From: a virus
Strand: one strand, 5' to 3'
Length of the DNA: 26,593 bases
Virus record (IMG/VR): IMGVR_UViG_3300032245_000754
Location: 1 to 26,593 of that record
Shown here: positions 1 to 15,771 of the stretch, one piece after another
Numbering within the stretch: the first letter of the stretch is position 1
How the letters are laid out: every line of letters begins with the position of its first letter
Notes under the pieces: model-generated
The model's input: only the letters and a program-made list of their open reading frames with translations
Database searches by the model: none
Told to the model about the DNA's origin: nothing
Position numbers and translations under genes: made by a program

Positions 1-2195
1 ACTTCTTCTTTTTCTCCTCGTCCTATGCCAACCATGGACATGTCTGAAGTATCTACTGGTGCTTCTTGCATTGCATCTGCGTGTCTTTCTGCATGATCCT
101 GCTGCACCCAATCATTGAAGTCCGTATCAACCATTAATTTTTCCATTTGTTCATCGGATAACTCTGTGCCATCTGTGAATTGAGCATTTTGTAGGTCGAA
201 TATATTATCACCAACATCTTGCATTTCGTATTCTATGGTGTTTAGATCCACTTGCTTACCATCAATCATGACAGGTCTATCAGATTCTTTTACCACTGAT
301 TCTGCCGGTGCCTTGGTTGTGCTAAGTGCATAATCAAAAGAATCATCTGACTTGTCGTCTTTTTTATTTGTTCTATTATCTGAGGCAGATGCAGCATCTT
401 GTAGAGCTGTGATCTGTTCTGGTGTGTAGTAATTTTGTATGTTTGGACTCTTTAATAGAGTGTTCATGATATAGTTCTTAACAGTATCACAAGCACAAGC
501 ATCTGGTCCTTCTCGATCTGCTAATTCGCCCAACTGATCAAATAGATCATCATCGCCAAATCCTAAGCCCTGTAGAGTTGACACAGCATTAACTGCTTCG
601 TTGCCCACAGGGAAATGTTTGCTCATTACATCTTTTAATTTACTAAAATTCTCACCAGCATGATCTTCGTCTGGTAAAGAATGAATTCCTTCGGTAACTT
701 TAGATTCTGTTCTATTAGCCCACTTTTCAAATTCTTCACCTTCGCCTTTGGCTTTGCCTTGACGATCTTTTTTAGGAGCAAACTTGCTGGGATCTTGTCT
801 TACTTCGTCAGCGTATGCTGGATTCTGTTGCATTTTTTTATAATCATCAATATATCTTTTTGCCAATTGTATTGCAATCTTTTTATTTTTTGTATAATTT
901 TCATCTGGTTTGAAGAACGGTGCTCCTTCGTTGCCCATATCGTCGGCTACTTGGCTAGCAAAATTAGCAATTCTATCTTCTTCGTCGTTTCTAGTTAACA
1001 TTCTTGAAGCGATATCTGATAGAATAGAACTTAACATAGTATTCTTATTATTAAATTTTGTTACTGATAACATCCTATCAGCAGCAGGATCTGCTCTTAA
1101 TACTAATTTTTTTTCTGGATTAGCTAGGAATGATTGTACCATTGCTGAATGATCCACCGGTGGAGATATCTCGCCATCTCGGTCATCATACTCTTTCATG
1201 ATTGAATGAATCAATGGTAGAGCCGATTCTACTTTGTCATCAAGGTGTTTTAATGTAAATTTTTCTCTTAAACTATTTCTAGTAGCATCATCTAATTCAG
1301 CAATAGTGGTAGGTTGAAAACTTTCTTTAGTTTTCATATAATGTGCTTGCTTGCTTAAATTTTTTACATAATTTCTCATGTTCTCTAATTTAAGTCGACT
1401 TTTTTCTATAATGTCACCTACTGAATTGTTTAACTGATCTTTGTTAGTGGCATATCGAGCAAAACTATTAAGCTGAGCAATCTGTTCACTCATTGATATA
1501 ATATGTTTACCAAAATCATCATGAGGTACGCCACCATTGGCCACGTGTCGAGCCATTGCTCTTGCACCTGCTAAATGTTTCATTGGATATTTGAATCTTT
1601 CGCCTTGTGCGTTTTCAATGTACAGACTATTAATTTGTCTGCTTCTAGCACCTGGTACAGATTCATCCACTGCTTTTGCATGTCTAATTATTAATCTTGT
1701 TTTGTCTAAATTTTCGTAAGAAGATTTCTTAGTTCCTCTAAGACTTTCTGCTACTGGAATACCTGCTAATCTTGTTAATCGGTTTAATTCTTCAGACATA
1801 TTATCGTCTGTATTTACCGTTTGATTCACATCTGCAAGATTCTTGAAATCCTGCTGTGTAAGGCTGCTTTTTGTGATATCTCTTACATCAAAACTCACTT
1901 GATGCTCTACTGCAAAGTCTTTTAGTTCTTTAAGGAAATTGTACCAATCGGCTCTAGCAGTGTCATCAATTTTCTCTACTAGTCCTTGATTATAGAACAC
2001 TTTCATGCTCTCACCATCAGCTATACTGATACTCACTCTGCCAAAATTGTCAGAATTTTCACTGAATTCAAAATCAAAGAACACTGCTGATTTAGGATCT
2101 GCAGTTACGTTACCTGCGCTGTCTCCTAACTGTATGTTAGAGAACTTGCTGCGTATTTTATTGAATAAATCCTGTGATGTTTTGGGCTTGATCAT
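1..2195 (-). CDS. Conserved marine T4-like phage protein, unknown function (C-terminus cut by window edge)
   Basis: The reading frame is open from an ATG at 2195 to the left edge with no in-frame stop, giving at least 731 residues. It starts MIKPKTSQDLFNKIRSKF, 10 nt after the gp17 stop. The visible part is acidic and mostly hydrophilic, with no signal peptide or membrane segment. A distinctive central block reads YIENAQGERFKYP, then HLAGARAMARHVANGG, and long helical, Lys/Glu-rich stretches follow. I recall similar blocks in unnamed proteins of marine T4-like phages, but this is memory and not a search. AATAAATA lies just before the ATG. Its place directly after terminase suggests a late virion or head-assembly role, which is inference only. 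The true length is unknown because the end lies outside the window. Confidence 0.85.
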   Translation of the reverse strand, partial: MIKPKTSQDLFNKIRSKFSNIQLGDSAGNVTADPKSAVFFDFEFSENSDNFGRVSISIADGESMKVFYNQGLVEKIDDTARADWYNFLKELKDFAVEHQVSFDVRDITKSSLTQQDFKNLADVNQTVNTDDNMSEELNRLTRLAGIPVAESLRGTKKSSYENLDKTRLIIRHAKAVDESVPGARSRQINSLYIENAQGERFKYPMKHLAGARAMARHVANGGVPHDDFGKHIISMSEQIAQLNSFARYATNKDQLNNSVGDIIEKSRLKLENMRNYVKNLSKQAHYMKTKESFQPTTIAELDDATRNSLREKFTLKHLDDKVESALPLIHSIMKEYDDRDGEISPPVDHSAMVQSFLANPEKKLVLRADPAADRMLSVTKFNNKNTMLSSILSDIASRMLTRNDEEDRIANFASQVADDMGNEGAPFFKPDENYTKNKKIAIQLAKRYIDDYKKMQQNPAYADEVRQDPSKFAPKKDRQGKAKGEGEEFEKWANRTESKVTEGIHSLPDEDHAGENFSKLKDVMSKHFPVGNEAVNAVSTLQGLGFGDDDLFDQLGELADREGPDACACDTVKNYIMNTLLKSPNIQNYYTPEQITALQDAASASDNRTNKKDDKSDDSFDYALSTTKAPAESVVKESDRPVMIDGKQVDLNTIEYEMQDVGDNIFDLQNAQFTDGTELSDEQMEKLMVDTDFNDWVQQDHAERHADAMQEAPVDTSDMSMVGIGRGEKEE

Positions 2196-2199
2196 ACTG

Positions 2200-2207
2200 T
2201 ATTTATT
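2200..2207 (-). promoter_or_regulatory. Late-promoter-like AATAAATA before the left-edge gene
   Basis: Reading the minus strand, AATAAATA ends 4 nt before the ATG at 2195 and overlaps the gp17 stop codon. One base differs from the T4 late consensus TATAAATA. No Shine-Dalgarno is visible between it and the start. Confidence 0.5.
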
Positions 2208-3801
2208 AAGAACCCAGGTTAGCAAATATAGGCATTGGGACAGTCCATTCTGTGGTTCTGTCAGTCCATCTTTCAAATATTTTAGGGTCAAATGTGGCTA
2301 AAACCTGCATCATACGAGTCATTAATAGACAAGCACTCACAAGGTCATCGTGCTGTCCGGGCTTGCCTTTGAAAGAAATACCTGATGCTACGAAGTCTTT
2401 TAACTCTGATATCAGTGGTTTGCTGTTAATCTTCATTTTTCCTGATTCTACTAATTCTTTAAATTTAGCACAGGCTGCTATTTTATGTTTAGCAGTTGTG
2501 TTAAATCCTCTTCGAAATTTTCTACGATGTCCTTTTCGTATAGGTTCACTTAAAAATTGCCCATGAATATTTTCTTCTCCTAGATCCATTACTCTCAATA
2601 ACACTGCTTCTCCTAGAGTATTGTTCTCCATACTGTAATATATTGCAGGAGTTTCAGAAGGATTTTTTTCTACAATTGACTCATGTATATGTTTTGTGAT
2701 TGCTTGTAATATTCTAACCTGTTGGTTGGCAGGTGTGGTATTGTTATGCCATTCTCCCACTTGTTCAAAACTCGGTAATTCAAATATCTGTATGGCTGCA
2801 AAGTCTCCTCCTGTGCCCAAACTAGGATCCAGTGCCACCATGTAGGCATTGCCCGGTGTGGGTGTTTTCCACCAACGCACTTGTCCCATATTAATCAATG
2901 GATCTTTGCCTTCTAACTCTACTAATTTTATACTAGAGATTAATGTTTCATCAAAGATTAAGAATTCGCACTCGTGCTCTCGACGAAATCTTTCTTCCCC
3001 AATTCTACTTTTTTCTTGCTCGGCCCATTTTTCATCTCGATCTGGATGTTCTGACCAGTGAGCTTTCATAGCATAGAAACCATTAGTTCCTACAGTGTTA
3101 TCGTTACCATAATCATCATATCTTTTTAAGGCTTCTTTCCAAATCAAAGCGAACTGATCTTCATCTGAGTTTGGTGTTGAAGTAATTAAACATTTTCCTC
3201 CTGTGCTCAATGTAGGAGATAATGAAGTCCAGAATTCTTTAGCTTTCTCAGGCGGTTGCACGAATGCAAACTCATCGCAATATATTAAAGAAAGTGACAT
3301 ACCTCTACCTGTGTTCTCAGTAGTGGTAGTTGCCATAATTTTAGACCCATTATCAAATTCTATAGAATTTCTATTGTATTGTGTAACACCTGCTTTGATC
3401 CATGATGGCAACATCTCATATCCATAACGCACCCTTGACATAATGTCTGATGCTCCTTGATATTTGTGTGCTGCAATTAGTATTTGTGAATCAGGTTTAA
3501 ACATAGCATACCATAGAAGATATCCAGCAGCACAGGTAGTCTTACCTGTTTGTCGTGGCAGCATGGCAATACTGAATCGATGATTATTGTAACTTTCAAT
3601 TAATCTTTCTTGATAAGGAAACGGAACAAAGTCCATAGATCCCTTAGTAGGATGTTGTATTTTAATAAATTCTTTCATGAAGAAAAGAGGACCGGTTTTT
3701 GGATCCATACATTTCTCTAATTTCAATACTTGGTCAGTGGTGTACTTGTGCTTCTTATGAGCTTTTTTTATTTGGTCTGAATCTAACGATATGTATGCCA
3801 T
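2206..3801 (-). CDS. 17: Terminase large subunit (T4 gp17-like packaging ATPase/nuclease)
   Basis: This is the DNA-packaging motor and headful nuclease, which acts at the portal of the prohead. The product has 531 residues (T4 gp17 has 610). The N-terminal ATPase shows a Walker A PRQTGKTT at residues 82-89, a Walker B LIYCDE at 172-177 (D176, E177) and a coupling motif TSTPN at 207-211. The C-terminal RNase H-like nuclease shows acidic candidates D325 (ALDPSLG), E392 (YSMENN) and D485/D486 (GQHDD), in the expected order. The start is ATG (MAYISLD), with CTTAAATA 6 nt upstream and no clear Shine-Dalgarno. The ATPase and nuclease motifs all look intact. gp16 lies three genes upstream in the same direction, so both terminase subunits are in one cluster, although T4 has them adjacent. 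Confidence 0.97.
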   Translation of the reverse strand: MAYISLDSDQIKKAHKKHKYTTDQVLKLEKCMDPKTGPLFFMKEFIKIQHPTKGSMDFVPFPYQERLIESYNNHRFSIAMLPRQTGKTTCAAGYLLWYAMFKPDSQILIAAHKYQGASDIMSRVRYGYEMLPSWIKAGVTQYNRNSIEFDNGSKIMATTTTENTGRGMSLSLIYCDEFAFVQPPEKAKEFWTSLSPTLSTGGKCLITSTPNSDEDQFALIWKEALKRYDDYGNDNTVGTNGFYAMKAHWSEHPDRDEKWAEQEKSRIGEERFRREHECEFLIFDETLISSIKLVELEGKDPLINMGQVRWWKTPTPGNAYMVALDPSLGTGGDFAAIQIFELPSFEQVGEWHNNTTPANQQVRILQAITKHIHESIVEKNPSETPAIYYSMENNTLGEAVLLRVMDLGEENIHGQFLSEPIRKGHRRKFRRGFNTTAKHKIAACAKFKELVESGKMKINSKPLISELKDFVASGISFKGKPGQHDDLVSACLLMTRMMQVLATFDPKIFERWTDRTTEWTVPMPIFANLGS

Positions 3802-3807
3802 GATTAT

Positions 3808-3815
3808 TATTTAAG
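3808..3815 (-). promoter_or_regulatory. Late-promoter-like CTTAAATA before gp17
   Basis: On the minus strand CTTAAATA ends 6 nt before the gp17 ATG at 3801. It keeps the TAAATA core but departs from TATAAATA at the first two bases. It lies in the 61-nt gap between the 133-residue gene and gp17. Confidence 0.45.
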
Positions 3816-3862
3816 TGTAAAATAACAACACGTTCTATATAGATAATGAGTATTTGGTAAAA

Positions 3863-4264
3863 CTAAGCTACTGTTAATGATGTGGCTGCTGTAACAGTAG
3901 ATCCACTAATATCAACAGAGTTTGATCCTAACACAGTAGAAAAGTCATCGTTTGGATTTAAACCAACTCTTCTAACTCTTGTTTGCATATCTGCTGCAGA
4001 AGCATTTTTATCCATTACTAAATGAATTGTGCCTGCTGATGAGTTTGTGATTTGATAAGCAAGAGGATTAAGTTCTTTTAGAATCATTTCTACAACACCA
4101 TCGATATATACATCTATTCCATTGTTGGTAGATTCGTCTTCGGTTCTTAAATCAATAGCATTACCGTCTGCTTTTTTTACTGTTAATAAAAAAAGGTTAG
4201 CATTAACAGCATATAGTGTTCCTGCTGTTGCTTCTACTCCAGATACTCTTGTTACTGTTGCCAT
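3863..4264 (-). CDS. Small hypothetical protein, beta-rich, 133 residues
   Basis: I do not recognise this family. The protein starts MATVTRVSGVEATAG and is rich in Val, Thr, Ala and Ser. Its short alternating hydrophobic/polar segments suggest an all-beta fold. There is no signal peptide, membrane segment or catalytic motif. The start at 4264 follows the stop of the upstream 369-residue gene by 5 nt and has GGTAAATA 6 nt ahead of the ATG. Its position inside the packaging/structural cluster, directly before gp17, makes a minor virion component (for example a head-surface or tail accessory protein) the natural guess. The sequence does not prove this. Confidence 0.85.
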   Translation of the reverse strand: MATVTRVSGVEATAGTLYAVNANLFLLTVKKADGNAIDLRTEDESTNNGIDVYIDGVVEMILKELNPLAYQITNSSAGTIHLVMDKNASAADMQTRVRRVGLNPNDDFSTVLGSNSVDISGSTVTAATSLTVA

Positions 4265-4269
4265 ATGAA

Positions 4270-5379
4270 TTATTTACCTTTCGATTCTTTGTCTTTAAGA
4301 GCTTTTTTCATGGGCTCTGTTTTATTACCATCTTTGTCCATATCTAAAAAATCTGGTTTAGCTTTAGTTTCTTGATATGTTTGTTTAAAACTCTCATATT
4401 GAGCTCTTAGACTGTTGGATAATTGTTCTTCTGTGATTTCAGATTCTCCCATCTTAATTGCCATGGGATTATCTCCGCCTGCTGCTTTAACATAAGCACC
4501 TTTTTCACGATTTAAATCTGTTCCATTTGGTATTGCTGCTTTGATGTCGCTGTATTTTTCTTTTGGAGTGTTAGCATAGTCTTCATCTGCTTTTACTTCT
4601 GCTGGTTGATTGATCATATCTTGACTAACTGGTTGTACTCCTGCTAATTTTAATAATTGCATCATCATTGCTGCTTCTTCTGGATTGTCTGTAGCAATAA
4701 CAACTGATTCATTCATTTTCTTTTCTTTGTCTTTGATAGCTTTTTTCATAGGTTCCTTTTTGTTACCGTCTTTATCCATATCTAAGAAGTCTGGTTTCGC
4801 TTCTTGTACTGATTCATTTTCTTTTTCTTCTTTGTGTACTCTATCCCAAACATGAGCTTGTGATTGTCCATGTTTTTTAATAAATGCTTCTCTGCTCATA
4901 TCTACAGCATCTGATTCTAAATCCATTAACCAACTTTTTACTTTGCCTTCTTCCATTTCCTCTTCAGTTACTCCTGCTGCCTGCATGAATTTTGCATTAT
5001 CAAAATTTGGATTGAAATGTTGAAATATAGCTGAATGATGTTTAGCATATTCTGCTCTCTTGATTGGATCTTCGATTTGTTTTAATGTATCTGCAACATA
5101 TTGAAAATGTTGACGTGTCATATTCTCATCTATTTCGCCTTCGTTTTTTTCAACGCTTTTAGCAATATCATGAGCTTTAGTGATTGTGGATTTTTTAAGA
5201 GGAGGAGTATCTCCTGTAGATTTCATAGCCTGTGCCATTCCGATTGCATATGGATTTTTTGCTTTTTCATCTACTGCACCGTTGGTTTTTGCAACACTAG
5301 CGATTGCATCTTTAACATCTACGTTAGGATTGTTTTCTTGAATTTGTTTAAGTCTAGTTAAGATATCAATCATGTCCAT
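4270..5379 (-). CDS. Hypothetical charged protein with duplicated DxDxDG motif, 369 residues
   Basis: The function is unknown. The protein is highly charged and mostly helical, starting MDMIDILTRLKQIQ. It carries two near-identical segments, residues 195-220 and 341-366, each containing FLDMDKDGNK followed by EPMKKA. DMDKDGNKKE resembles a calcium-binding DxDxDG loop of the EF-hand or excalibur type, but it lacks the usual acidic residue at loop position 12, so metal binding is uncertain. A hydrophobic segment around residues 226-252 (SVVIATDNPEEAAMM, then LLKLAGVQPV) separates the two halves. The start lies 5 nt after the preceding gene, with AGGA about 10 nt upstream. I recall comparable DMDKDG-type repeats in unnamed marine T4-like phage proteins. 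A virion, scaffold or prohead-core role is inferred from context only. Confidence 0.85.
   Translation of the reverse strand: MDMIDILTRLKQIQENNPNVDVKDAIASVAKTNGAVDEKAKNPYAIGMAQAMKSTGDTPPLKKSTITKAHDIAKSVEKNEGEIDENMTRQHFQYVADTLKQIEDPIKRAEYAKHHSAIFQHFNPNFDNAKFMQAAGVTEEEMEEGKVKSWLMDLESDAVDMSREAFIKKHGQSQAHVWDRVHKEEKENESVQEAKPDFLDMDKDGNKKEPMKKAIKDKEKKMNESVVIATDNPEEAAMMMQLLKLAGVQPVSQDMINQPAEVKADEDYANTPKEKYSDIKAAIPNGTDLNREKGAYVKAAGGDNPMAIKMGESEITEEQLSNSLRAQYESFKQTYQETKAKPDFLDMDKDGNKTEPMKKALKDKESKGK
4271..4278 (-). promoter_or_regulatory. Late-promoter-like GGTAAATA before the 133-residue gene
   Basis: On the minus strand GGTAAATA ends 6 nt before the ATG at 4264. It overlaps the last codons and stop of the preceding 369-residue gene. 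No Shine-Dalgarno is seen downstream of it. Confidence 0.45.
4282..4359 (-). repeat. Direct repeat, copy 2, inside the 369-residue gene
   Basis: This segment encodes residues 341-366 at the C-terminus and matches the copy at 4720-4797, with a few conservative amino acid changes (for example KKEP versus KTEP). Confidence 0.8.
4720..4797 (-). repeat. Direct repeat, copy 1, inside the 369-residue gene
   Basis: This 78-nt segment encodes residues 195-220 and is nearly repeated at 4282-4359, about 438 bp away in the same frame. Third-position differences show the copies are not recent duplicates, while the amino acid sequence is almost unchanged. Confidence 0.8.
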
Positions 5380-5383
5380 AAAA

Positions 5384-6013
5384 TTATTTTCCTGCTGGGT
5401 TTGGGTTGCCTTTTACTGCGCCCTTGTGTGCTGGTTTAATTGGAGACACAGAATCTTTCTTATCGATTTCGTTTTTCTGTACTTCTTGTTCTACTTTAAT
5501 TTTAGCAGCAAATTCTATTTTTTGTTTTCTATCTTTTAATAATTCTTTTAATAAACTTTGATTAGCTCGATCTCCGTATACTTCATCTGCTTTTACTTTT
5601 GGAGCATCTTTGTATTCTACGTCTTGTAACATAGATTTAAATTCTGATTTTTTCTCAGCTTTTGCTTTCATTTCTTCTTGATACTCTTCTGTGGGCTCAC
5701 CAGGTTTTCTCACAACGATTTGATTAGGGTGCAATCTCATGCTGTCAGCAACCAATGTTCTCATCTCAAATACTGATGCTGGATACATTGTGGTTAATTC
5801 AAATATTGTTACTGCTTCGTTTTTTAAATGAGGAAAATCTAATGGCACCTCTTGTATAGGAGTTTTTTTGCCTTTTGACAAAGTTTTAACTTCGTATTTT
5901 TTTAGTACTGTCTCTAATTTAGAGCCAAAATCTTCGCTTAAATCACCAGCTACTTTGATTTTGTAGTTGTATTCTTTAGTTGATTCTGCTAGATATTGTT
6001 TAAAGTCTGTCAT
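5384..6013 (-). CDS. Hypothetical protein, 209 residues
   Basis: I cannot name this protein. It starts MTDFKQYLAESTKEYNYKIK. Residues 1-100 alternate strands and helices in a way that suggests a small globular alpha/beta domain, including HPNQIVVRKPGEPTEEY near residues 95-111. The second half is a Lys/Glu-rich, probably helical or disordered tail ending GNPNPAGK. There is no membrane segment or known motif. The ATG at 6013 has ACTAAATA 7 nt upstream and no Shine-Dalgarno. It sits between gp16 and the 369-residue gene with a 10-nt and a 4-nt gap. The same tandem pair (this protein plus a DMDKDG-repeat protein) is, from memory, common near terminase in marine T4-like phages, so a joint head-assembly role is plausible. 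Confidence 0.85.
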   Translation of the reverse strand: MTDFKQYLAESTKEYNYKIKVAGDLSEDFGSKLETVLKKYEVKTLSKGKKTPIQEVPLDFPHLKNEAVTIFELTTMYPASVFEMRTLVADSMRLHPNQIVVRKPGEPTEEYQEEMKAKAEKKSEFKSMLQDVEYKDAPKVKADEVYGDRANQSLLKELLKDRKQKIEFAAKIKVEQEVQKNEIDKKDSVSPIKPAHKGAVKGNPNPAGK

Positions 6014-6020
6014 AATGCAG

Positions 6021-6028
6021 TATTTAGT
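6021..6028 (-). promoter_or_regulatory. Late-promoter-like ACTAAATA before the 209-residue gene
   Basis: On the minus strand ACTAAATA ends 7 nt before the ATG at 6013 and overlaps the gp16 stop codon. No Shine-Dalgarno is apparent. Confidence 0.45.
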
Positions 6029-6545
6029 CTTTCTTCAGCAGTTTCTTCATTAACTCGTTACGATCGCTAATGATCATGCCTTCGCTTTCAACCGGTTCGC
6101 TAGTGTCGTCTGAGCCGCTTTTATCTATTTTTAACTTCTTAAGCTGTAGCTCTACCATCTGTAATTTTTTATCAATTTTTTGTGATTTTGCATCTATAGC
6201 ATTACGCAACATTGAACTAGCAACTTCAAAAATACGTCCTGAATACCTGCTGTCCACATTCATACCTAAATCCATTAAGTTTTTGTAACTCTCTTCTGCT
6301 TCCATAGCTAATTTGTCTAACTCTAGATCACTGAGTTCTCCCAGTCCTTTAACCTGCGGTAGTGCTGCTGCAATCTTATCAAATTCTTGATAGGTTTTTT
6401 CTAATGCTTTGGCAGTTTGGGGATCTACATTTTTGGGTATAGTGGGTTTATCTTTTTCTTCTCGAGATTTTTCTTTATCATCCACTTTAGCGAATGCTTC
6501 TTTAACATTTGGTAAATTCAGTATCTCTTCTAACTTGCGTGTCAT
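6024..6545 (-). CDS. 16: Probable terminase small subunit (T4 gp16-like)
   Basis: In T4-like phages gp16 forms a ring that recognises DNA and regulates the gp17 motor. The product has 173 residues, close to T4 gp16 (164). The N-terminal third is charged and probably disordered. The centre, about residues 60-145, forms two to three amphipathic helices (SYKNLMDLGM, then RIFEVASSMLRNAIDAKSQK, then LQMVELQLKKL). This resembles the coiled-coil core of gp16 with its Arg-x-x-x-Glu-Val-Ala helix. A charged tail follows (MKKLLKKD). The start is ATG at 6545 with AGTAAATA 6 nt ahead. It shares a cluster with gp17 and gp4. The assignment rests on size, helical pattern and context. Small terminases diverge quickly, so a structural match is needed. 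Confidence 0.65.
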   Translation of the reverse strand: MTRKLEEILNLPNVKEAFAKVDDKEKSREEKDKPTIPKNVDPQTAKALEKTYQEFDKIAAALPQVKGLGELSDLELDKLAMEAEESYKNLMDLGMNVDSRYSGRIFEVASSMLRNAIDAKSQKIDKKLQMVELQLKKLKIDKSGSDDTSEPVESEGMIISDRNELMKKLLKKD

Positions 6546-6551
6546 GTTTGA

Positions 6552-6559
6552 TATTTACT
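6552..6559 (-). promoter_or_regulatory. Late-promoter-like AGTAAATA before gp16
   Basis: On the minus strand AGTAAATA ends 6 nt before the gp16 ATG at 6545 and overlaps the end of gp4. No Shine-Dalgarno is seen. Confidence 0.45.
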
Positions 6560-6989
6560 TGCGATTGCCTTGATGGAATAATTGTTCTTCACTCAATACT
6601 CGAAAAGTGATTCTATTCTGTCGAGCATAAGCAGTAGCAGCCTCCCATTTGGCTCTATTAATAATCACCTGTGTTTGTCGTCCTGAGCTTTTACCAGCAC
6701 GTGCCATGGTAATTTGATTCATGGGTTTTACTTCTATTAATTCTGCATGCTTACTGCCATCTTTGTCCATGTAAACTATAAAAAAATCTGGCACATAAAT
6801 TGTATATTTTCCAGTGAGTGGATGACGATAAGGTATTTGTATGGACTCGCTGGCCCACTGATATACATTCGGATGTTCATCACACAATCGCATGAATGAG
6901 TGTTCCCAGCTACTTCTATAGGTTGGAGATTTTAAACCCACGTACTTGGCAGGATTCTTCATTATGAATTTTCCTCTAGCGAATTTCAT
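6555..6989 (-). CDS. 4: Head completion protein (T4 gp4/gp50-like, PD-(D/E)XK fold)
   Basis: T4 gp4 acts on DNA-filled heads before tail joining. Its family has a restriction-endonuclease-like fold. Here 144 residues carry the family pattern: NPAKYVG at 12-18, YRSSWEHSFM with E30, then PYRHP, VPDFF with D68, and LIEVKP with E86 and K88. E30, D68, E86 and K88 make an intact PD-(D/E)XK-type set. The length fits marine gp4 homologues (about 140-150). The ATG at 6987-6989 overlaps the TAA of the upstream 125-residue gene as TAATG, so translation is probably coupled. No separate promoter motif is seen here. Confidence 0.92.
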   Translation of the reverse strand: MKFARGKFIMKNPAKYVGLKSPTYRSSWEHSFMRLCDEHPNVYQWASESIQIPYRHPLTGKYTIYVPDFFIVYMDKDGSKHAELIEVKPMNQITMARAGKSSGRQTQVIINRAKWEAATAYARQNRITFRVLSEEQLFHQGNRK

Positions 6990-8769: not shown

Positions 8770-8775
8770 ACTCTA

Positions 8776-8783
8776 TATTTATA
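8776..8783 (-). promoter_or_regulatory. Late promoter TATAAATA of the gp54-like gene
   Basis: An exact T4 late consensus TATAAATA on the minus strand ends 6 nt before the ATG at 8769. It follows the gp19 terminator directly. No -35-like hexamer stands at the 17-bp position, as expected for a phage late sigma factor. No Shine-Dalgarno is seen before the ATG. Confidence 0.75.
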
Positions 8784-8788
8784 GTCAC

Positions 8789-8813
8789 AAAAAAAGCGCC
8801 GTTAAAGGCGCTT
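8789..8813 (-). terminator. Intrinsic terminator after gp19
   Basis: On the minus strand a perfect 7-bp stem (AAGCGCC with GGCGCTT, 8794-8813) with a 6-nt loop leads into a run of T (8789-8795 as A on the plus strand). It stands 26 nt past the gp19 stop and just before the next promoter. The plus strand has only an interrupted T tract, so the minus orientation fits better. Confidence 0.85.
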
Positions 8814-8838
8814 CTTTTGCTATAAACGAAATGTAAAA

Positions 8839-9465
8839 TTATATACCGCCGCCTGTTGCTAATGAACCGATAGTTCTTGTCAATGCTGTGCCAATTCCTG
8901 TGCCTTGTGGAGTTTGTACTGCGTTGTCATATCTGATCGATAAAGTGATTGTAACTGGATCAGATGTAGCATAAGCCAATGTGTTGTAGTTTACTGATTG
9001 TACGTAAGAGCCGTAAAGTTCCCAAGTTTCTAATATGCCTGGTGCTGTTGCGCCATTACCACCATCCAGCATTTCAATTCTAGTGGTGAATTTGTAATCA
9101 ATTCCTGAAGCAGCTGAAGATTGTTCAAAGAAATCAAATTGTTTCTGAACTTGTTCACCAACCAATTTAGAAACTGAGTTATTAACATCGTCTCTTAAAT
9201 TTAATGTGATAGCTTCCCACGTGTGTTTTCCAGCCATATAAATTCTTGAGTTGTAAACATCTAGTGTTACATCATCAAAAGTTAAATTAGGTCGGGTAAC
9301 ATCAATAACTTGTTTGGTTAATTCTGATCTTGGAGTTGATACACCGAAGTTTTCAAGAACTACTCTAAAACGATACTGAAGTTTTGGCATCAATAAACCT
9401 TGTGATGCTGAACTCTGATCGTTTGCTAATGGTACTGTAAATTTACTTAATGTTGAGATTGCCAT
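8839..9465 (-). CDS. 19: Tail tube protein (T4 gp19)
   Basis: This is the main subunit of the inner tail tube, through which DNA passes into the cell. The product has 208 residues (T4 gp19 has 163). It is an obvious marine-type gp19: GLLMPKLQYRFRVVLENFGV near residue 23, then RPNLTFDDVTLDVYNSRIYM, AGKHTWEAITLNLRDD, FDFFEQSSAASGIDYKF, and WELYGSYVQSVNY. The start is ATG with AAGGAAC about 8 nt ahead. GGTAAATA lies 15 nt upstream, so unlike its neighbours this gene would have a short leader. It follows gp18 by 28 nt, as expected for sheath and tube, and is closed by a strong terminator. Confidence 0.97.
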   Translation of the reverse strand: MAISTLSKFTVPLANDQSSASQGLLMPKLQYRFRVVLENFGVSTPRSELTKQVIDVTRPNLTFDDVTLDVYNSRIYMAGKHTWEAITLNLRDDVNNSVSKLVGEQVQKQFDFFEQSSAASGIDYKFTTRIEMLDGGNGATAPGILETWELYGSYVQSVNYNTLAYATSDPVTITLSIRYDNAVQTPQGTGIGTALTRTIGSLATGGGI

Positions 9466-9480
9466 ATTTTTGTTCCTTTT

Positions 9481-9488
9481 TATTTACC
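9481..9488 (-). promoter_or_regulatory. Late-promoter-like GGTAAATA before gp19
   Basis: On the minus strand GGTAAATA ends 15 nt before the gp19 ATG. The Shine-Dalgarno AAGGAAC (minus strand, about 9472-9478) fits between the two. Confidence 0.5.
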
Positions 9489-9493
9489 GGGTA

Positions 9494-12400
9494 TTAAACT
9501 CCCAAGTTAGCTATTTCTCCTGTGTTTTTAATTCTTAAAGGTATGTAGATAAACTCAACTGATTTCACAGGCTCAATTGCTATGTCAACATACAGTTCAT
9601 TTCTGTCAATCCTTGTGGCAGTGTTGTTTGTTTCATCGCACACCACTAAGAAGTCATATAATGCTCTTTGACCTACTAGTTCTAACAAGAATGATTCGAT
9701 AGCTGCTTTGATTTCATTTCTTGTTAAAGAATCATTTGGTTCAAATATAAACGGTTTAGCTATTTTGTCTAATTGTGTTCTTAGATAAACAGTTAATCTT
9801 GAAACGTTAATTCTATCTAGTGCTGAACTTTCAGAAGTTTTAGTTAAGTTACCAAAGTTTAATATTCCTGTGCCTGAGAAGAAAGTAATTGGATTTACTT
9901 TAGCAGAGTGCATGCTGTCTCTGATAGATTCAGTCAAAGCAATCTGTTGGAACTCGCCGGTAGCACTGTCAATGTATCCCACTGAAGTTGCATTGTCAAC
10001 GATACCTCTTCTTGTACCAGCTGGAGCAAACCATGGGAATGCCACGTTGTCATTGTTAGCTAATACTCTCAGCATCATGTGACTTGGTGGAACAACGATT
10101 GTGTTACCGGTGTTGTCTGTGGTTCTTCCTGATGGATAAAACACACCAAGATAATCACTTGACGTAACAAGACCTTGGTCTCCGTTATCAGATGCACCTG
10201 CTGAGTTATTCGCCCAGTTAGTGATAGCTGTTGAATTACCTGCTAATCTCATTGGAGAATCTCCCACAACAAAAGATGTATTGTTTCTGTCAGTGTTAAG
10301 ATTAACTAGGTTAGCAATTGCTTCAGGATATCCTGGACATGCTATAATGTTAAATCCTCTTTGATCTTCTCTGATTGCTTGGTTAGTATCAATTTCTGAT
10401 TTTAATTGTTGAACAATTACTTTTCTCACAGCTTTTCTTCCAAAAGTGCCTGAACCGTTATCGTTATTAGCATTTTTAGTTACCCATCTGTCTGGGAAGT
10501 AAGTAGATACTGATTCGTTACCGTATCTAATGTTACCTTTGCCTGATGATCCAGAACCTGGATATGTAGTTGTAGTTACGTAGCTGTTTCTGTATTCTTT
10601 AACATTGTATCCTGATCTTCTTGTGTTGAATAACAAGATTGATTTTGGATATAGAGCTGGATTTGGACAATCTGGATCTACAAAATCATCACTTAAAAGA
10701 TTTTTAATTGAACTTGCTGTGCCTGCACCACCAGATGATAATGAATCATCCTTGTCAGTGTCAGTTTGCCATCTAGCATCAGCAAAAACTATACCATTTT
10801 CTGTGGTTTGATCTGTGTTATCAATTAATACGAAATCAGCACCATCTGTTAATGTTGTGTCGTATCTGTAAATTTTTGGATAGTTTTCTAAATCTGAAGT
10901 ATCAATCCATAAATCGTTTGCAACTAACGCAGTACCATCTGATTGCGTGGTAGGTTTAGTTGATGAGAACTGAGGTCCATTTGGATCAGTTGTAGCATAA
11001 ACTTGTACATAACCTTTCCATGCAGTTCCGTTGTGAACCATGATATCAGCTTCTAAATTGGTGTTGTACCATAAAGTTCCATTGCTTGGTTCGTTGCTTG
11101 GCTCTGAAGAGGAAGCTGTGTAGCTCAAACGTTTCCAGTTAGTAGCAACAACCACTGCTGGTTGTGTAGAATCTTCTGTGTAACCTGCTGGAGCAACATA
11201 TAAGTTGTCCACTTTGGTTGCAGAATTTGCTGTGTAAGAACCGTAGTCATGTGCATTAGATGTTCCAAAACCTGCATCAGCTAGAGCTGTGCCTGAAGAA
11301 ACGTTCCACATTCTAAATTCTCCACCCAGTGCATGAGTAATTTTAATAGCACCAGTTGAAAGTTTAGTTGCAGAAATATTTGTAAATCCTGCTGCACTAA
11401 TTGCTGCAACAAAATCATCAGCACCAGTTCCACCTAGAGTTACAGTTTTTGCTGTGTCTAGAGCAGATTGACCTTTTAATGATTCTTGAATTTTAATTGC
11501 ATGTCCATTAGTGAAACTTGGAGTTGTGTTTTTAGAAGTGATTGATGTAACACCACCTTCGTATTTGAAAACTGTAAAGTCAGCCAATTTAGGAGTAGTG
11601 TCAAAAGCACCCAGAGTTGATTGCTCTGCTGCGTTGTATTGAGTGTAAAGTGTTCCTGCTGATATACCAGAACCACCATTCACAGAATCTATACCATAGA
11701 TTGCTGAATGATTGTTAGCATATAGTGGAGCATCTACCACTGACCAAGCACTTGTGCTAGAATTGTATTTTTTAATAGCAACATCTGCTCCTGAATTTGG
11801 AGTGGTTGTCTTAAACCACACAGATCCAGTTGGAGCATTATTTTCTGCTGTTTTCCATTCTGGTCTGCTAGAGTGTGCAGACGTTTGGAATAGTTTAGTT
11901 CCGCCTGACCAAGTAGAAGTTCCTACTTGTACCCAAGCATTAGAACTATTCTTATAATAAATCTTATTTGCATTGTTTGTTGTATTGATTGCATAATCAC
12001 CCTGTGAACCAATTGCTGTTTTTGGTGTACCTGTAGATACTGAACCAACTAGATCACTTGTTGATGTGATATAGATTGGATCAATAGTAGTGAATGCTTG
12101 ATCAGTTGATGACCATTCAAATAGTCCTGGCACAGTTGATGATAAATCAAACCAATAGCTGCCATTGGTTGGAGCAGCTGACGGAGCAGTTGCACTGCCA
12201 ATTAATTGTGAAAGATTGATGTTTGCTCTTAATATAAAAGCTCTGTTAGCAATACCTAAGAATGAATAAGCTGCTTGCAAGCCATATTCGTTTAGCTCAT
12301 AACCATTCAATGAATTGTTTGCTGAATCTGTATAGAATTTTGGATCTCCAAAAGTCTCTGTTAATTCTCTTTGAGAAGAGATCAAATATACTGAATTTGC

Positions 12401-12559
12401 GTTAGCAGATTTAGTGCCTGCTGCTACAGCCGATCCTGCGCCGTTTAATTTGTCTTGTGCTGAAGCAACAATTATTAGTGGTGTTGTTCCCGCATCTGAT
12501 GGTACATAGAAACTCTCGTTTATTACTGTAACTTCTACGCCTGGTGATGTTAATGCCAT
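9494..12559 (-). CDS. 18: Tail sheath protein (T4 gp18), enlarged
   Basis: This is the contractile sheath subunit around the gp19 tube. It has 1021 residues from the ATG at 12559; T4 gp18 has 659. The N-terminus MALTSPGVEVTVINESF and C-terminal part (LRTQLDKIAKPFIFEPND, LLELVGQRALYDFLVVCDE, then FIYIPLRIKNTGEIANLGV) are the conserved sheath core. About residues 120-590 are an extra Ser/Thr/Asn-rich region of repeated short units such as SNGTLWYNTN followed by HNGTAWKGYV. The start is fixed by AAGGAG 8 nt upstream. A TTG 18 nt further out overlaps that Shine-Dalgarno and is unlikely. AATAAATA lies 30 nt upstream. The core is well supported. The role of the insertion, perhaps exposed on the sheath surface, is inference. 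Confidence 0.97.
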   Translation of the reverse strand: MALTSPGVEVTVINESFYVPSDAGTTPLIIVASAQDKLNGAGSAVAAGTKSANANSVYLISSQRELTETFGDPKFYTDSANNSLNGYELNEYGLQAAYSFLGIANRAFILRANINLSQLIGSATAPSAAPTNGSYWFDLSSTVPGLFEWSSTDQAFTTIDPIYITSTSDLVGSVSTGTPKTAIGSQGDYAINTTNNANKIYYKNSSNAWVQVGTSTWSGGTKLFQTSAHSSRPEWKTAENNAPTGSVWFKTTTPNSGADVAIKKYNSSTSAWSVVDAPLYANNHSAIYGIDSVNGGSGISAGTLYTQYNAAEQSTLGAFDTTPKLADFTVFKYEGGVTSITSKNTTPSFTNGHAIKIQESLKGQSALDTAKTVTLGGTGADDFVAAISAAGFTNISATKLSTGAIKITHALGGEFRMWNVSSGTALADAGFGTSNAHDYGSYTANSATKVDNLYVAPAGYTEDSTQPAVVVATNWKRLSYTASSSEPSNEPSNGTLWYNTNLEADIMVHNGTAWKGYVQVYATTDPNGPQFSSTKPTTQSDGTALVANDLWIDTSDLENYPKIYRYDTTLTDGADFVLIDNTDQTTENGIVFADARWQTDTDKDDSLSSGGAGTASSIKNLLSDDFVDPDCPNPALYPKSILLFNTRRSGYNVKEYRNSYVTTTTYPGSGSSGKGNIRYGNESVSTYFPDRWVTKNANNDNGSGTFGRKAVRKVIVQQLKSEIDTNQAIREDQRGFNIIACPGYPEAIANLVNLNTDRNNTSFVVGDSPMRLAGNSTAITNWANNSAGASDNGDQGLVTSSDYLGVFYPSGRTTDNTGNTIVVPPSHMMLRVLANNDNVAFPWFAPAGTRRGIVDNATSVGYIDSATGEFQQIALTESIRDSMHSAKVNPITFFSGTGILNFGNLTKTSESSALDRINVSRLTVYLRTQLDKIAKPFIFEPNDSLTRNEIKAAIESFLLELVGQRALYDFLVVCDETNNTATRIDRNELYVDIAIEPVKSVEFIYIPLRIKNTGEIANLGV

Positions 12560-12567
12560 TTTTAGTT

Positions 12568-12597
12568 CTCCTTGCAAGTATAACTGATGTATTTATT
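12568..12597 (-). promoter_or_regulatory. gp18 late promoter and ribosome binding site
   Basis: On the minus strand AATAAATA (12590-12597) is followed by a leader and a Shine-Dalgarno AAGGAG (12568-12573) placed 8 nt before the ATG at 12559. This Shine-Dalgarno decides the gp18 start. Confidence 0.65.
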
Positions 12598-12636
12598 GTT
12601 CTGCACGGTTTTTGCGGCGTTATATTGACAATTTTG

Positions 12637-12653
12637 GTGCCTATATAGGGCAC
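12637..12653. promoter_or_regulatory. Palindrome upstream of the HNH gene
   Basis: GTGCC-TATATAG-GGCAC forms a 5-bp inverted repeat around an AT core. Its right arm touches the TAAATA motif of the HNH gene. It could be an operator for a dimeric protein or an RNA hairpin in read-through transcripts. No T run follows, so a terminator is unlikely. Confidence 0.4.
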
Positions 12654-12660
12654 GTAAATA
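12653..12660 (+). promoter_or_regulatory. Late-promoter-like CGTAAATA before the HNH gene
   Basis: CGTAAATA ends 5 nt before the ATG at 12666. No Shine-Dalgarno is seen. The gp18 promoter lies about 60 bp away on the opposite strand, so this is a divergent promoter pair. Confidence 0.5.
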
Positions 12661-12665
12661 CACAT

Positions 12666-13016
12666 ATGAAACGACCCCTATGTAATACCTGTAAATCCAA
12701 GCCCAGAGCATATGGCTATAAAAAAGGCACTAAAATCTATTGGCGTAGTCAATGCGATACCTGTATACGCAAACGTAAGAATTTAAAAACTAATGGCATT
12801 GCTCGTTGGATTCAATCAGGTTATCGTAAAAAAAATCGTTGCGAGTTATGCGGATTTAAAGCTATCAATGAGCAACAAATGGATGTGTTTCATGTGGATG
12901 GCAACAGGAATAACACTTCTGTATATAATTTAAAAACTATCTGTTCTAATTGTCAACGTTTAAAAAGCACTCAAGAATTAGGTTGGTCTATTGGGGATCT
13001 TGAAGCAGATGCTTGA
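12666..13016 (+). CDS. HNH endonuclease with zinc knuckles (free-standing homing type)
   Basis: This 116-residue protein carries two zinc-binding pairs at the N-terminus (C6xxC9 and C30xxC33) and an HNH-like core with C59xxC62, FHVDGN (H76, D78, N80), NLKTICSNC (N88, C93, C96). Such small proteins nick or cut DNA, and in T4-like phages they act as mobile homing endonucleases. The ATG at 12666 is the only ATG at the 5' end; earlier codons would need a TTG start at 12612 and cross the promoter. It stands alone on the plus strand between gp18 and gp1, and its last 29 nt overlap the gp1 coding end. Lys/Arg-rich stretches fit DNA binding. The HNH class is clear, but homing activity is inferred. 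Confidence 0.88.
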   Translation: MKRPLCNTCKSKPRAYGYKKGTKIYWRSQCDTCIRKRKNLKTNGIARWIQSGYRKKNRCELCGFKAINEQQMDVFHVDGNRNNTSVYNLKTICSNCQRLKSTQELGWSIGDLEADA

Positions 13017-13569
13017 TCATATCATCTACTTTTATTTTTAAATCTTCTAGATTGCCTGAATTATCTATTTCATAATCAAACTTCTGTCCTATCCAATCCC
13101 ACTCGCTCTGATGCACTGCTCTTTCCTGCATCTCTTGTTGTGTGGGTATAGTTCCTCGTCTAACGAGCACGACTCGGCCTTTTAATGCTCTAATAGTTTC
13201 TATTTCATTAATAAATCTTGTGTCGCTGAGCACTATTTTTCCACCTTTGTAACGAGCTGTAAAAGAATCTATCCAAATGCTGTCATGGAAATGTCCTCGC
13301 ATGATTTCCGTACCCCAATATTGTAACACATATCGTGGAGTCACCGCTTTATTGAGTTTATTGCTCCAGTAAGGATCTATTCTTTCTCTCCACATTCTGC
13401 TCTCTTGTGTGGCTCCTTCTAATAATTCTCTATCCCAACCAAATATTGCACTGACAGCATCTTTTAATGATTTTGCAAAACTGTCTCTTTGAAATTCGTG
13501 TTCTTTAACCAAGAACTCTGCCACTGTGTCTTTGCCAGACCCAATTAATCCTACTAATCCTATAAGCAT
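12988..13569 (-). CDS. 1: Deoxynucleoside monophosphate kinase (T4 gp1-like)
   Basis: The product has 193 residues. This family phosphorylates dNMPs to dNDPs for phage DNA synthesis (T4 gp1 has 241 residues). The P-loop GLIGSGKDT is at residues 7-15. Further matches are DSFAKSLKDAVS near 29-40, an Arg-rich lid region (TQESRMWRERIDPYW), the block VLQYWGTEIMRGHF, then KIVLSDTRFINE followed by VRRGTIP, typical of the gp1/dNMP kinase family. The start is ATG at 13569, 9 nt after the upstream 58-residue gene, with only a weak GTAATATA ahead. It is cytosolic and metabolic, and is embedded among structural genes. Its 3' end overlaps the convergent HNH gene by 29 nt. The exact nucleotide range cannot be read from sequence. 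Confidence 0.9.
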   Translation of the reverse strand: MLIGLVGLIGSGKDTVAEFLVKEHEFQRDSFAKSLKDAVSAIFGWDRELLEGATQESRMWRERIDPYWSNKLNKAVTPRYVLQYWGTEIMRGHFHDSIWIDSFTARYKGGKIVLSDTRFINEIETIRALKGRVVLVRRGTIPTQQEMQERAVHQSEWDWIGQKFDYEIDNSGNLEDLKIKVDDMIKHLLQDPQ

Positions 13570-13578
13570 GTAAGTATA

Positions 13579-13755
13579 TTACAGGTTTTTTAATCTTTTT
13601 GCAATCTCTTGCTGAGTTTTTTTAACGGTGTTTAATATTTGTTCTTGCATTGCAGGTTTATCAGCAACTCTGCTCATATTTTCCAATGCGGTTACTAGAT
13701 CTTCTAGCTCGTCAAGTGTTAGATCGTGAATTTTTTTAATGCCTATATTAGCCAT
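13579..13755 (-). CDS. Small helical hypothetical protein, 58 residues
   Basis: The function is unknown. The ATG at 13755 (MANIGIKKIHDLTLDELEDL) is preferred over a TTG two codons upstream, and ATTAAATA lies 9 nt ahead of it. The product is almost entirely charged helix with heptad-like Leu/Ile/Val spacing, so a short coiled coil or helical hairpin is likely. It is tucked between gp13 and gp1 with 53 and 9 nt gaps on the same strand. It may be co-transcribed with gp1. Confidence 0.75.
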   Translation of the reverse strand: MANIGIKKIHDLTLDELEDLVTALENMSRVADKPAMQEQILNTVKKTQQEIAKRLKNL

Positions 13756-13764
13756 AATCAAATA

Positions 13765-13772
13765 TATTTAAT
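13765..13772 (-). promoter_or_regulatory. Late-promoter-like ATTAAATA before the 58-residue gene
   Basis: On the minus strand ATTAAATA ends 9 nt before the ATG at 13755, inside the AT-rich 53-nt gap after gp13. This is a weak case, because the gap is AT-rich throughout. Confidence 0.35.
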
Positions 13773-13808
13773 CTGAAGTGTTAAAGAATTAAAAGATAAT
13801 AAAAAGAA

Positions 13809-14567
13809 TTAACCGATAATAAAACTAGTTGCCGCACCACCATCCATATTAAGAACAATTTCTTGATCTAATTTTTCCATCATGGCCATACCTTCTTGTT
13901 TTAATGTTTCTCCATTTAGAGAAGTTCCACCTTGTGGTCCTGCAATAGTTCCAAATTTACTTCTTGCTTCGCCTAGCATTACTTTACAAACTGCAAGAGT
14001 ATAATCTCTAAGCCAAGGTTTAACATATATGTCTTTCATTAAAGTTATGTCTGGTCTATAATTGTCTGTGTGTAATAAAACTCTCTCAGTGTCAATTCTT
14101 GGACGCTGTGTTATGGTCAACGTTTTTGTAGCATTGTCATAATGAAATTGTATAAAAGAACCAAACATTTTTCCCACTAATTCTTGATATGAAGCAAAAG
14201 CATAATAGGTAGCTAATCCGCCCGCTGCACCCGCTCTCATAAGATAGGTGTTGGTGTAGGCCAAGTTAAATGGTTCAAATAAAGTTCCACCTTGTCCATC
14301 ACCTCGAGTTCCCACAGTAGCTCGTGCTATTTCTCTTACATTGATAATTTCGTCTGGTAGAATGTATTTGTTTTGATTTTCTTTAAGATCTAGAAAAGCA
14401 TAACTTTCTTCCACAGAATTGTTAGATCTCTGTCTAAAACGGTTTATGGCTCTTTCTAGTGCAACTTGGTAGTGTTTTGGGTCCAATTCCACCTCAATCA
14501 TACCATCGCCTAGGTTGGTTTTAACGTATTCAAATACTTCTTGCTGTGCTGTTTGTAACTCTGACAT
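13809..14567 (-). CDS. 13: Neck protein (T4 gp13-like)
   Basis: gp13 closes the filled head at the portal and makes the platform for the tail. The product has 252 residues from the ATG at 14567 (MSELQTAQQEVFEYVK). T4 gp13 has about 309. Family-like features are a helical N-terminus with VELDPKHYQVALERAINRFR, YILPDEIINVREI, SYQELVGKMFGSFIQFHYDN, TLTITQRPRIDTERVLLH, then IYVKPWLRDYTLAVCKVMLGEARSKFG. The longer frame to 14648 crosses the promoter and runs into gp14, so it was not used. CATAAATA lies 5 nt upstream. In T4 gp13 and gp14 are neighbours on one strand. Here they are still neighbours but are divergent. Confidence 0.88.
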   Translation of the reverse strand: MSELQTAQQEVFEYVKTNLGDGMIEVELDPKHYQVALERAINRFRQRSNNSVEESYAFLDLKENQNKYILPDEIINVREIARATVGTRGDGQGGTLFEPFNLAYTNTYLMRAGAAGGLATYYAFASYQELVGKMFGSFIQFHYDNATKTLTITQRPRIDTERVLLHTDNYRPDITLMKDIYVKPWLRDYTLAVCKVMLGEARSKFGTIAGPQGGTSLNGETLKQEGMAMMEKLDQEIVLNMDGGAATSFIIG

Positions 14568-14572
14568 ATGGA

Positions 14573-14580
14573 TATTTATG
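14573..14580 (-). promoter_or_regulatory. Late promoter CATAAATA of gp13
   Basis: On the minus strand CATAAATA ends 5 nt before the gp13 ATG at 14567. It is one base from the T4 late consensus. It is one half of the gp13/gp14 divergent pair. Confidence 0.65.
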
Positions 14581-14594
14581 GCTGCTGTCTTTTC

Positions 14595-14602
14595 TATAAA
14601 TA
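14595..14602 (+). promoter_or_regulatory. Late promoter TATAAATA of gp14
   Basis: The exact consensus TATAAATA ends 8 nt before the gp14 ATG at 14611. It is separated by 14 bp from the opposing gp13 promoter. No -35-like hexamer or Shine-Dalgarno is visible. Confidence 0.72.
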
Positions 14603-14610
14603 TGGTTAGT

Positions 14611-15771
14611 ATGCCACGTTTATCAATATACAAGCCGGAAAAGGGCAACGATTATAAGTTTTTTGATCGCAATATAAATGAGATGTTCCAAGTGGGTGGA
14701 GTGGATATCTTTTTGCACAAATATGTAGGCACATACGATCAGGGTGCTACAAACAAAGACGGCCCTGCTAGTCCCACATTGCCTGCTGAAAGCACACTGG
14801 GTGAAAGAACCATACAAGATCTGCTTTTCTTAGAAAATAGAGACAGAAAATACGATGCAGATGTATATGTTATTAGAGGCATATACAACGTGCAAGATAC
14901 AGATTTTAATCTTAGCCAATTTGGTATGTTTCTGCAAAATGATACGTTATTTCTAACAGTGCATTTAAATGATGTCGTAGAACGACTAGGTAGAAAACCC
15001 ATGTCAGGAGATGTGGTAGAATTTCCTAATTTAAAAGATGATTACAGTCTAGATGCTAGTATACCTATAGCTCTAAAAAGATTTTATGTTATTGAAGATG
15101 TGAATAGATCAGCAGAAGGCTTTTCTCCTACATATTGGCCACACCTATTAAGATTAAAATTAAAAACCATAGTGGACAGTCAAGAATTCCGAGATATAAT
15201 AGGAGATGCCACCACTGCGGGTTCTCTTGCAAGTTACATGAGTACCTATAACAAAGAGAAAGAAATCAACGATGCTATTATCGCTCAAGCCGAAGCAGAT
15301 GCTCCCAAATCAGGATTTAATTACAAACAATTTTATGTTACACCTATAGATGAGCGAGGAAATATACGATTAGAAGGTGCAAATTCGGAAGAAACAATAT
15401 CATCAGACCAACCTATCAATGCTGTGATAGACACACCGGCTAGCAGCCACTATGGATTCTATTACAACGGTGATGGCATACCACCTAATGGATATGTTGC
15501 AGGTGCAGGAACCAGTTTCCCAACATCAAATGTTAACAAAGGTGATTATTTCTTAAGATTAGATTTCTTACCTAATAGATTATTCCGATTCGATGGTATA
15601 CGATGGATCAAGGTAGAAGATTCGGTAAGATTGACCACAACCAATAACAATACCAGAAATACATTTAAAACTGGCTTTGTTAATAACAGCAGTACAACCA
15701 CAATCAATGGATTAACTGTGGAGCAAAGACAGACATTGTCCAATGCTCTTAAACCCAAGGCTGACAACTAA
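14611..15771 (+). CDS. 14: Neck protein (T4 gp14-like) with C-terminal add-on
   Basis: gp14 joins gp13 at the head neck before tail attachment. The product has 386 residues from the ATG at 14611 (MPRLSIYKPEKGNDYKFFD); T4 gp14 has 256. Residues about 20-160 match gp14 in style: VGGVDIFLHKYVGTYD, TIQDLLFLENRDRKYD, FGMFLQNDTLFLTVHL, SGDVVEFPNL. The extra C-terminal part contains GDYFLRLDFLPNRLFRFDG then RWIKVED near residues 311-335, a module also seen in marine gp14 from memory. The open frame extends upstream to 14515 but only by crossing the promoter and gp13. The stop overlaps the gp15 ATG as TAATG, so gp15 is probably coupled. Confidence 0.9.
   Translation: MPRLSIYKPEKGNDYKFFDRNINEMFQVGGVDIFLHKYVGTYDQGATNKDGPASPTLPAESTLGERTIQDLLFLENRDRKYDADVYVIRGIYNVQDTDFNLSQFGMFLQNDTLFLTVHLNDVVERLGRKPMSGDVVEFPNLKDDYSLDASIPIALKRFYVIEDVNRSAEGFSPTYWPHLLRLKLKTIVDSQEFRDIIGDATTAGSLASYMSTYNKEKEINDAIIAQAEADAPKSGFNYKQFYVTPIDERGNIRLEGANSEETISSDQPINAVIDTPASSHYGFYYNGDGIPPNGYVAGAGTSFPTSNVNKGDYFLRLDFLPNRLFRFDGIRWIKVEDSVRLTTTNNNTRNTFKTGFVNNSSTTTINGLTVEQRQTLSNALKPKADN

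Follow-up and report, generated by a model that had tools for sequence, protein, structure and literature searches.

TAAATA at start codons in the window

The stretch of DNA analyzed here (hereafter designated the window) is the IMG/VR virus record IMGVR_UViG_3300032245_000754, a genome fragment of 26,593 nucleotides (26.6 kb) that carries a T4-type virion cluster, with genes for the terminase, a gp16-like protein, the gp4 head closure protein, the tail tube, the sheath, gp13, and a gp14-like protein; the sheath assignment (gp18) rests on position and on synteny with phage PA5oct. We found that the hexamer TAAATA lies 4–9 nucleotides before the ATG of ten genes of the window. An earlier note on this sequence had listed these ten motif-ATG pairs, and all of them were confirmed.

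On the minus strand, the motif precedes the left-edge gene (motif 2200–2205, ATG 2195; gap between motif and ATG, 4 nucleotides), the gp17 terminase large subunit gene (3808–3813, ATG 3801; gap 6), a 133-amino-acid gene (4271–4276, ATG 4264; gap 6), where it overlaps the stop of the upstream 369-amino-acid gene, a 209-amino-acid virion structural protein gene (6021–6026, ATG 6013; gap 7), where the TAA of TAAATA is the gp16 stop, and the gp16-like gene (6552–6557, ATG 6545; gap 6), where the TAA is the gp4 stop. It likewise precedes a gp54-like tail-tube-related gene (8776–8781, within TATAAATA, ATG 8769; gap 6), a 58-amino-acid gene (13765–13770, ATG 13755; gap 9), and the gp13 head-tail adaptor gene (14573–14578, ATG 14567; gap 5). 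The remaining two genes are on the plus strand, namely an HNH gene (12655–12660, ATG 12666; gap 5) and the gp14-like gene (14597–14602, within TATAAATA, ATG 14611; gap 8), the latter divergent from gp13 with 43 nucleotides between the two start codons. The HNH gene (12655–13016) is opposite in strand to gp18 and a 193-amino-acid gene and carries its own motif. In all ten genes, the first T of TAAATA is 10–15 bp before the ATG.

TAAATA is underrepresented in the window, occurring 15 times against 32.6 expected by shuffling, and 10 of the 15 copies are those 4–9 nucleotides before the ATG of an open reading frame of at least 50 amino acids. In 200 dinucleotide-preserving shuffles, a comparison of the kind proposed in the earlier note, such placements averaged 0.15 and never exceeded 2. 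Moreover, 60% of the TAAATA copies have a gap of 4–8 nucleotides, compared with at most 13% for 14 other permutations of the hexamer. The shuffles and the permuted hexamers rule out chance and A/T richness as explanations. A further copy, conserved in 14 group-A relatives (defined below), is inside the left-edge gene (1811–1816, minus strand), 11 nucleotides ahead of an ATG in the reading frame of that gene (MSEELNRL...). It might serve as an internal late start, of which T4 gene 17 has annotated examples, or reflect codon constraint.

The ten genes also lack a clear Shine-Dalgarno sequence, as had been claimed. With −4 kcal/mol as the weakest pairing energy counted as a site, nine of the ten are at −2.2 or weaker, and the tenth, the 133-amino-acid gene, reaches −3.9 through an AAAGG that is upstream of TAAATA. 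The accompanying proposal that a Shine-Dalgarno sequence fills the gap where the motif is more distant holds for gp18 (motif 12590–12595, minus strand, 30 nucleotides upstream of the ATG at 12559, with AAGGAG in between) and for a 129-amino-acid gene (18527–18532, minus strand, 49 nucleotides upstream of the ATG at 18477, with AAAGGAG in between). It does not hold cleanly for the gp19 tail tube gene (9481–9486, minus strand, 15 nucleotides upstream of the ATG at 9465), whose Shine-Dalgarno sequence almost touches the motif. Among the genes that had been assigned Shine-Dalgarno sites, the 111- and 535-amino-acid genes have strong ones, whereas that of the 1857-amino-acid gene is weak (−3.2). 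The overlaps described at TAATG for gp4, the 125-amino-acid gene, and gp15 were confirmed.

Lineage distribution and the loss of Shine-Dalgarno sites

A megablast search gave no DNA-level match of the window to known phages. The window terminase is about 56% identical to those of the PA5oct-like Pseudomonas jumbo phages and 41% identical to that of XaC1, and the gene order from gp14 to the terminase is that of PA5oct. In a terminase tree of 69 sequences, the window belongs with good support to a clade of uncultured, T4-related giant phages from the environment (group A), which is adjoined by a broader environmental set as its sister group (group B); PA5oct and XaC1 branch farther out, and T4, Syn9, and HTVC008M lie on the opposite side of the tree. 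Relatives were retrieved via the terminase, and 80 from group A were used with the window for the TAAATA counts. These are non-independent samples; after removal of identical contexts, 362 (A) and 168 (B) unique near sites remained, where near denotes TAAATA a few nucleotides before the ATG (gap 4–8 in the share counts) and far denotes TAAATA further upstream.

In the window and these 80 relatives, 551 of 850 TAAATA copies are 3–10 nucleotides before the ATG of an open reading frame (14 other permutations, 3–15%), with the gap distribution peaking at 5 and 6 nucleotides in group A. The motif is near in group-A orthologs of the left-edge gene (80/80), gp17 (73/78), the 209-amino-acid gene (68/68), gp16 (63/65), the gp54-like gene (56/56), and the HNH gene (29/29). 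By function, the near-motif genes include late virion genes, namely those for the terminase, the head-tail adaptor, tail-tube proteins, and structural proteins. In a 138.7-kb group-A contig, few of the genes for replication and metabolism have near starts. In group B, the gaps are bimodal, with one peak at 5 (range 4–8) and a second at 17–22.

This conservation bears on the possibility that the promoter is real and that the true start codons are further down- or upstream, behind ordinary leaders. Alternative in-frame upstream starts do exist for the left-edge gene, gp13, gp14, the 58-amino-acid gene, and the HNH gene. However, in gp17, the 133- and 209-amino-acid genes, gp16, and the gp54-like gene, no start is available between a stop and the ATG; homologous N-termini align across relatives; and in HTVC008M an ATG of this kind is the deposited annotated start. 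We regard misplaced starts as very improbable.

The near geometry is specific to certain lineages. The share of TAAATA at gap 4–8 is 30–41% in three long group-A contigs (window, 60%), compared with 1% in the whole genome of PA5oct, 2% in T4 and MaF61, 3% in Aeh1 and Melnitz, and 0 in XaC1, Syn9, Phosso, Vibrio BX-1, P-SSM2, AG-345-F15, and Atu_ph07; in T4, Syn9, and XaC1, TAAATA is mostly 20–50 nucleotides upstream of the start, a placement that holds for these T4-superfamily phages as a whole. The exception among isolates is the Pelagibacter phage HTVC008M, in which 17 TAAATA copies, most at exactly 5 nucleotides, have gaps of 4–8 before annotated starts. Among the genes concerned are gp2, gp4, gp25, gp3, and those for the tail-tube cap and the tape measure, and the gp13 motif is at gap 8. 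This case is apparently an independent origin of the near-motif design. Its gp2 and gp4 are divergent (18916–18943), with 26 nucleotides between the start codons and TAAATA at gap 5 before each. Its DNA polymerase gene (record position 97061) has a TATAAT with a TG extension shortly before the ATG and lacks a Shine-Dalgarno sequence, so that short leaders may extend beyond the late genes of HTVC008M.

Near motifs and Shine-Dalgarno sites are anti-correlated. Sites occur at 3% (A) and 1% (B) of near starts, at 71% (A) and 58% (B) of far starts, and at 15% (A) and 12% (B) of random positions; the rate at near starts being below random, the sites are depleted, which goes beyond mere indifference. 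A 354-kb group-B contig alone has 38 near starts (3% with a site) and 62 far starts (74%). Individual group-B orthologs swap motif distance and Shine-Dalgarno sequence together (p<0.05 for the 209-amino-acid, gp54-like, left-edge, gp16, and HNH genes), as exemplified by the pairing energies of the 209-amino-acid ortholog (near −0.1, far −4.8; p=5e-7) and the gp54-like ortholog (near −0.2, far −3.7; p=3e-6). No such near/far difference was found for group-B gp17, and gp13 gave too few cases for the comparison. Start-codon identity was also considered as a test for leaderless genes and proved uninformative: group A gave 258 to 0 in favor of ATG, but genes with Shine-Dalgarno sites likewise begin almost exclusively with ATG.

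Probable transcription from the motif

The explanation that we consider highly likely, on sequence grounds, is that T4-type late promoters yield leaderless mRNAs, or mRNAs with leaders of 0–4 nucleotides, for these genes. On this view, host RNA polymerase with a phage gp55-type sigma factor would recognize TAAATA, which stands where a −10 box would, as the late promoter element of the lineage. The T4 late promoter element lies at −13 to −6 (PMC1524935), and with its end at −6, transcription would start at the sixth base after TAAATA; gaps of 4–9 nucleotides would then put the ATG at +1 or within about 5 nucleotides of it. A start codon at +1 to +5 is leaderless in the broad definition (PMC4633059). 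Such mRNAs would be translated by ribosomes that recognize a 5′-terminal AUG, not a Shine-Dalgarno sequence, and other late genes, such as those for gp18 and the major capsid protein, keep strong Shine-Dalgarno sequences.

Several observations point to transcription beginning at the motif. An intrinsic terminator (AAGCGCC-loop-GGCGCTT, then a T run; 8789–8813, stem 8794–8813, minus strand; −24.3 kcal/mol, z −5.6) ends its T run 7 nucleotides before the motif of the gp54-like gene. Terminator-like hairpins are found directly upstream of 25/362 (A) and 24/168 (B) near motifs, mostly 7–14 nucleotides away, compared with 10/4000 (0.25%, A) and 24/4000 (0.6%, B) random positions. Ten unique divergent pairs have near motifs on both sides and 26–43 nucleotides between the start codons, including gp13/gp14 of the window, and the shortest of them have space for two motifs and short spacers alone. 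Among the group-B far-motif genes in which a Shine-Dalgarno core was found (63 others lack a strict core), the core begins at least 5 nucleotides after TAAATA in 86/90, which fits an RNA start about 5–6 nucleotides after the motif, as in T4, and hence near ATGs at approximately +1 to +5.

The sequence context also fits a late promoter. The 138.7-kb group-A relative encodes a gp55-type late sigma factor of the PA5oct type (PHROG 12791, E=6e-82); late sigma factors of PHROG 12791/234 were found in two group-A relatives, PA5oct, and XaC1, the window being a fragment without a sigma gene. Compared with the T4-type forms TATAAATA, NATAAATA, and CTAAATA, the sites agree through the TAAATA core, which is kept while the flanks vary and the first TA of TATAAATA is not conserved; that TA is also not kept at position −13 in other T4-like phages (PMC1524935). 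No −35 or other shared upstream box is conserved in group B, and overrepresented orthologs best account for the scattered upstream signals of group A. A −10-like signal about 10–12 bp before the start codon is an accepted signature of bacterial leaderless genes (PMC3160421).

Alternatively, TAAATA might be a translational element or an A/T-rich spacer on longer mRNAs, with Shine-Dalgarno-independent initiation or coupling to upstream translation. Initiation without a Shine-Dalgarno sequence on long leaders exists, about half of the near starts are within 20 nucleotides of the upstream stop, and the gp16 and 209-amino-acid motifs contain the upstream stop codon. Against this reading, other A/T permutations are not enriched, Shine-Dalgarno sites are scarcer at near starts than in random DNA, and the same hexamer occurs 14–45 nucleotides upstream of Shine-Dalgarno genes, where translation would not need it. 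Coupling would have no upstream transcript to draw on at the divergent pairs, at the opposite-strand HNH gene, or behind the terminators 7–14 nucleotides before the motif. We judge this alternative to be improbable. The closeness of so many near starts to the preceding stop does make the "unit-first" label of the earlier note too strong; its division into two late classes otherwise agrees with the bimodal group-B gaps and with the orthologs that swap mode together with the Shine-Dalgarno sequence.

A weaker form of the leaderless explanation is mixed use, in which the near promoter gives a leaderless mRNA and read-through from upstream adds to the supply. The gp54-like gene, the 125-amino-acid gene, gp4, gp16, and the 209-amino-acid gene are closely packed, and the gp19 Shine-Dalgarno sequence would be usable solely on gp18 read-through mRNA. 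However, near genes lack Shine-Dalgarno sequences, so that a read-through mRNA would be of little help to them, and the terminator before the gp54-like gene would block read-through. Mixed use is possible but rather unlikely in our estimation.

Some points weigh against leaderless or nearly leaderless transcription. The spacing between promoter and start is borrowed from T4, and the late sigma factor of this lineage is larger and distant. Gaps of 7–9 imply leaders of 2–4 nucleotides, and in mycobacteria such starts are less efficient than an AUG at +1 (PMC4633059). For the near starts close to an upstream stop, coupling is possible. Finally, most group-A gp19 genes have a Shine-Dalgarno sequence abutting TAAATA (TAAATAGGAG...), as seen in seven relatives in which the two directly adjoin; this sequence is upstream of a T4-type transcription start and would be lost on such a transcript, so that not every TAAATA fits. 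Probably, gp19 is translated from gp18 read-through mRNA, or TAAATA is not its promoter. Nevertheless, the earlier suggestion that transcripts begin near the ATG is supported by the conserved, lineage-specific geometry, the Shine-Dalgarno depletion, the terminators, and the divergent starts, from which we infer promoter activity, the exact transcription start, and initiation at a 5′-terminal AUG.

Known systems and significance

T4 late transcription is a textbook system with separate promoter and translation signals. The late promoters of T4 (TATAAATA, served by gp55/gp33/gp45 and dependent on the sliding clamp) resemble the near motifs in the core hexamer, the lack of a conserved −35 box, the position before late virion genes, and the gp55-type sigma factor found in relatives of the window; they differ in that the T4 motif is mostly 23–40 nucleotides before the ATG, with a leader, vs 4–9 nucleotides in the window, and in that only TAAATA, not the first TA of TATAAATA, is conserved in the window lineage. 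PA5oct (Arenbergviridae) is one of the closest described relatives by gene order and terminase identity, but is sparing in near motifs, and its far-motif genes are mostly led by Shine-Dalgarno sequences. HTVC008M (Kyanoviridae) shares the late genes with TAAATA at gap 5 and the capsid, sheath, and tube genes with Shine-Dalgarno sequences, although it belongs to a distant branch, beside the leadered Syn9 in the terminase tree.

Outside this superfamily, the middle and late mRNAs of the Thermus phage φYS40 are mostly leaderless (PMC3594737). This lytic phage and its host are unrelated to those considered here, and most of its middle and late transcripts lack leaders, vs a subset predicted gene by gene in the window lineage. 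The leaderless genes of Actinobacteria and Deinococcus-Thermus have a comparable −10-like box about 10–12 bp before the start codon (PMC3160421), served by host sigma-70-type promoters instead of a phage late promoter. Leaderless phage mRNAs and T4-type late promoters are each already known. The fusion of the two into one element beside the start codons of individual genes did not turn up in the open-access literature searched, nor did any description of leaderless late mRNAs from phages of the T4 superfamily, although this is not proof of absence.

The terminase, connector, baseplate, and gp54-like parts are low-copy components of T4-type virions. The connector, baseplate, and gp54-like genes have near motifs in both the window lineage and HTVC008M, as does the terminase gene in the window lineage. 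In both, strong Shine-Dalgarno sequences are retained by the genes for the sheath, tube, and capsid; gp18 has a far motif and a strong Shine-Dalgarno sequence in every relative measured. We tentatively speculate that leaderless mRNAs supply the low-copy virion parts (terminase, connectors, gp54-like protein, baseplate), and that the high-copy parts (sheath, tube, capsid) come from messages led by a Shine-Dalgarno sequence. The same motif at differing distance would form a translation-level code, which would have arisen at least twice (here and in the Pelagibacter phage), and some of these phages may adjust the ribosome through a bS21 protein of their own. As a hypothesis, the near/far split would serve virion stoichiometry.

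Phage bS21 as such does not track the trait and was rejected as its correlate: it is present in PA5oct, which is leadered, in HTVC008M and its relatives, and in two group-B contigs, and none was found above the cut-off in the group-A contigs, all of which are partial. The bS21 gene of the 354-kb group-B record (232944–233180, minus strand) has TAAATA 7 nucleotides before its ATG, and this ribosome component may itself be made from a leaderless late mRNA.

If the explanation by leaderless late mRNAs is correct, one 6-bp element 4–9 nucleotides from the ATG would set both the transcription start and ribosome entry. The switch between leaderless and leadered modes, visible ortholog by ortholog, would constitute a natural experiment on the benefits of leaderless initiation. 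The design would also supply a practical rule: the late promoters of pelagimyophages, which one study attempted to predict without success (PMC7029224), may have been missed because they abut start codons.

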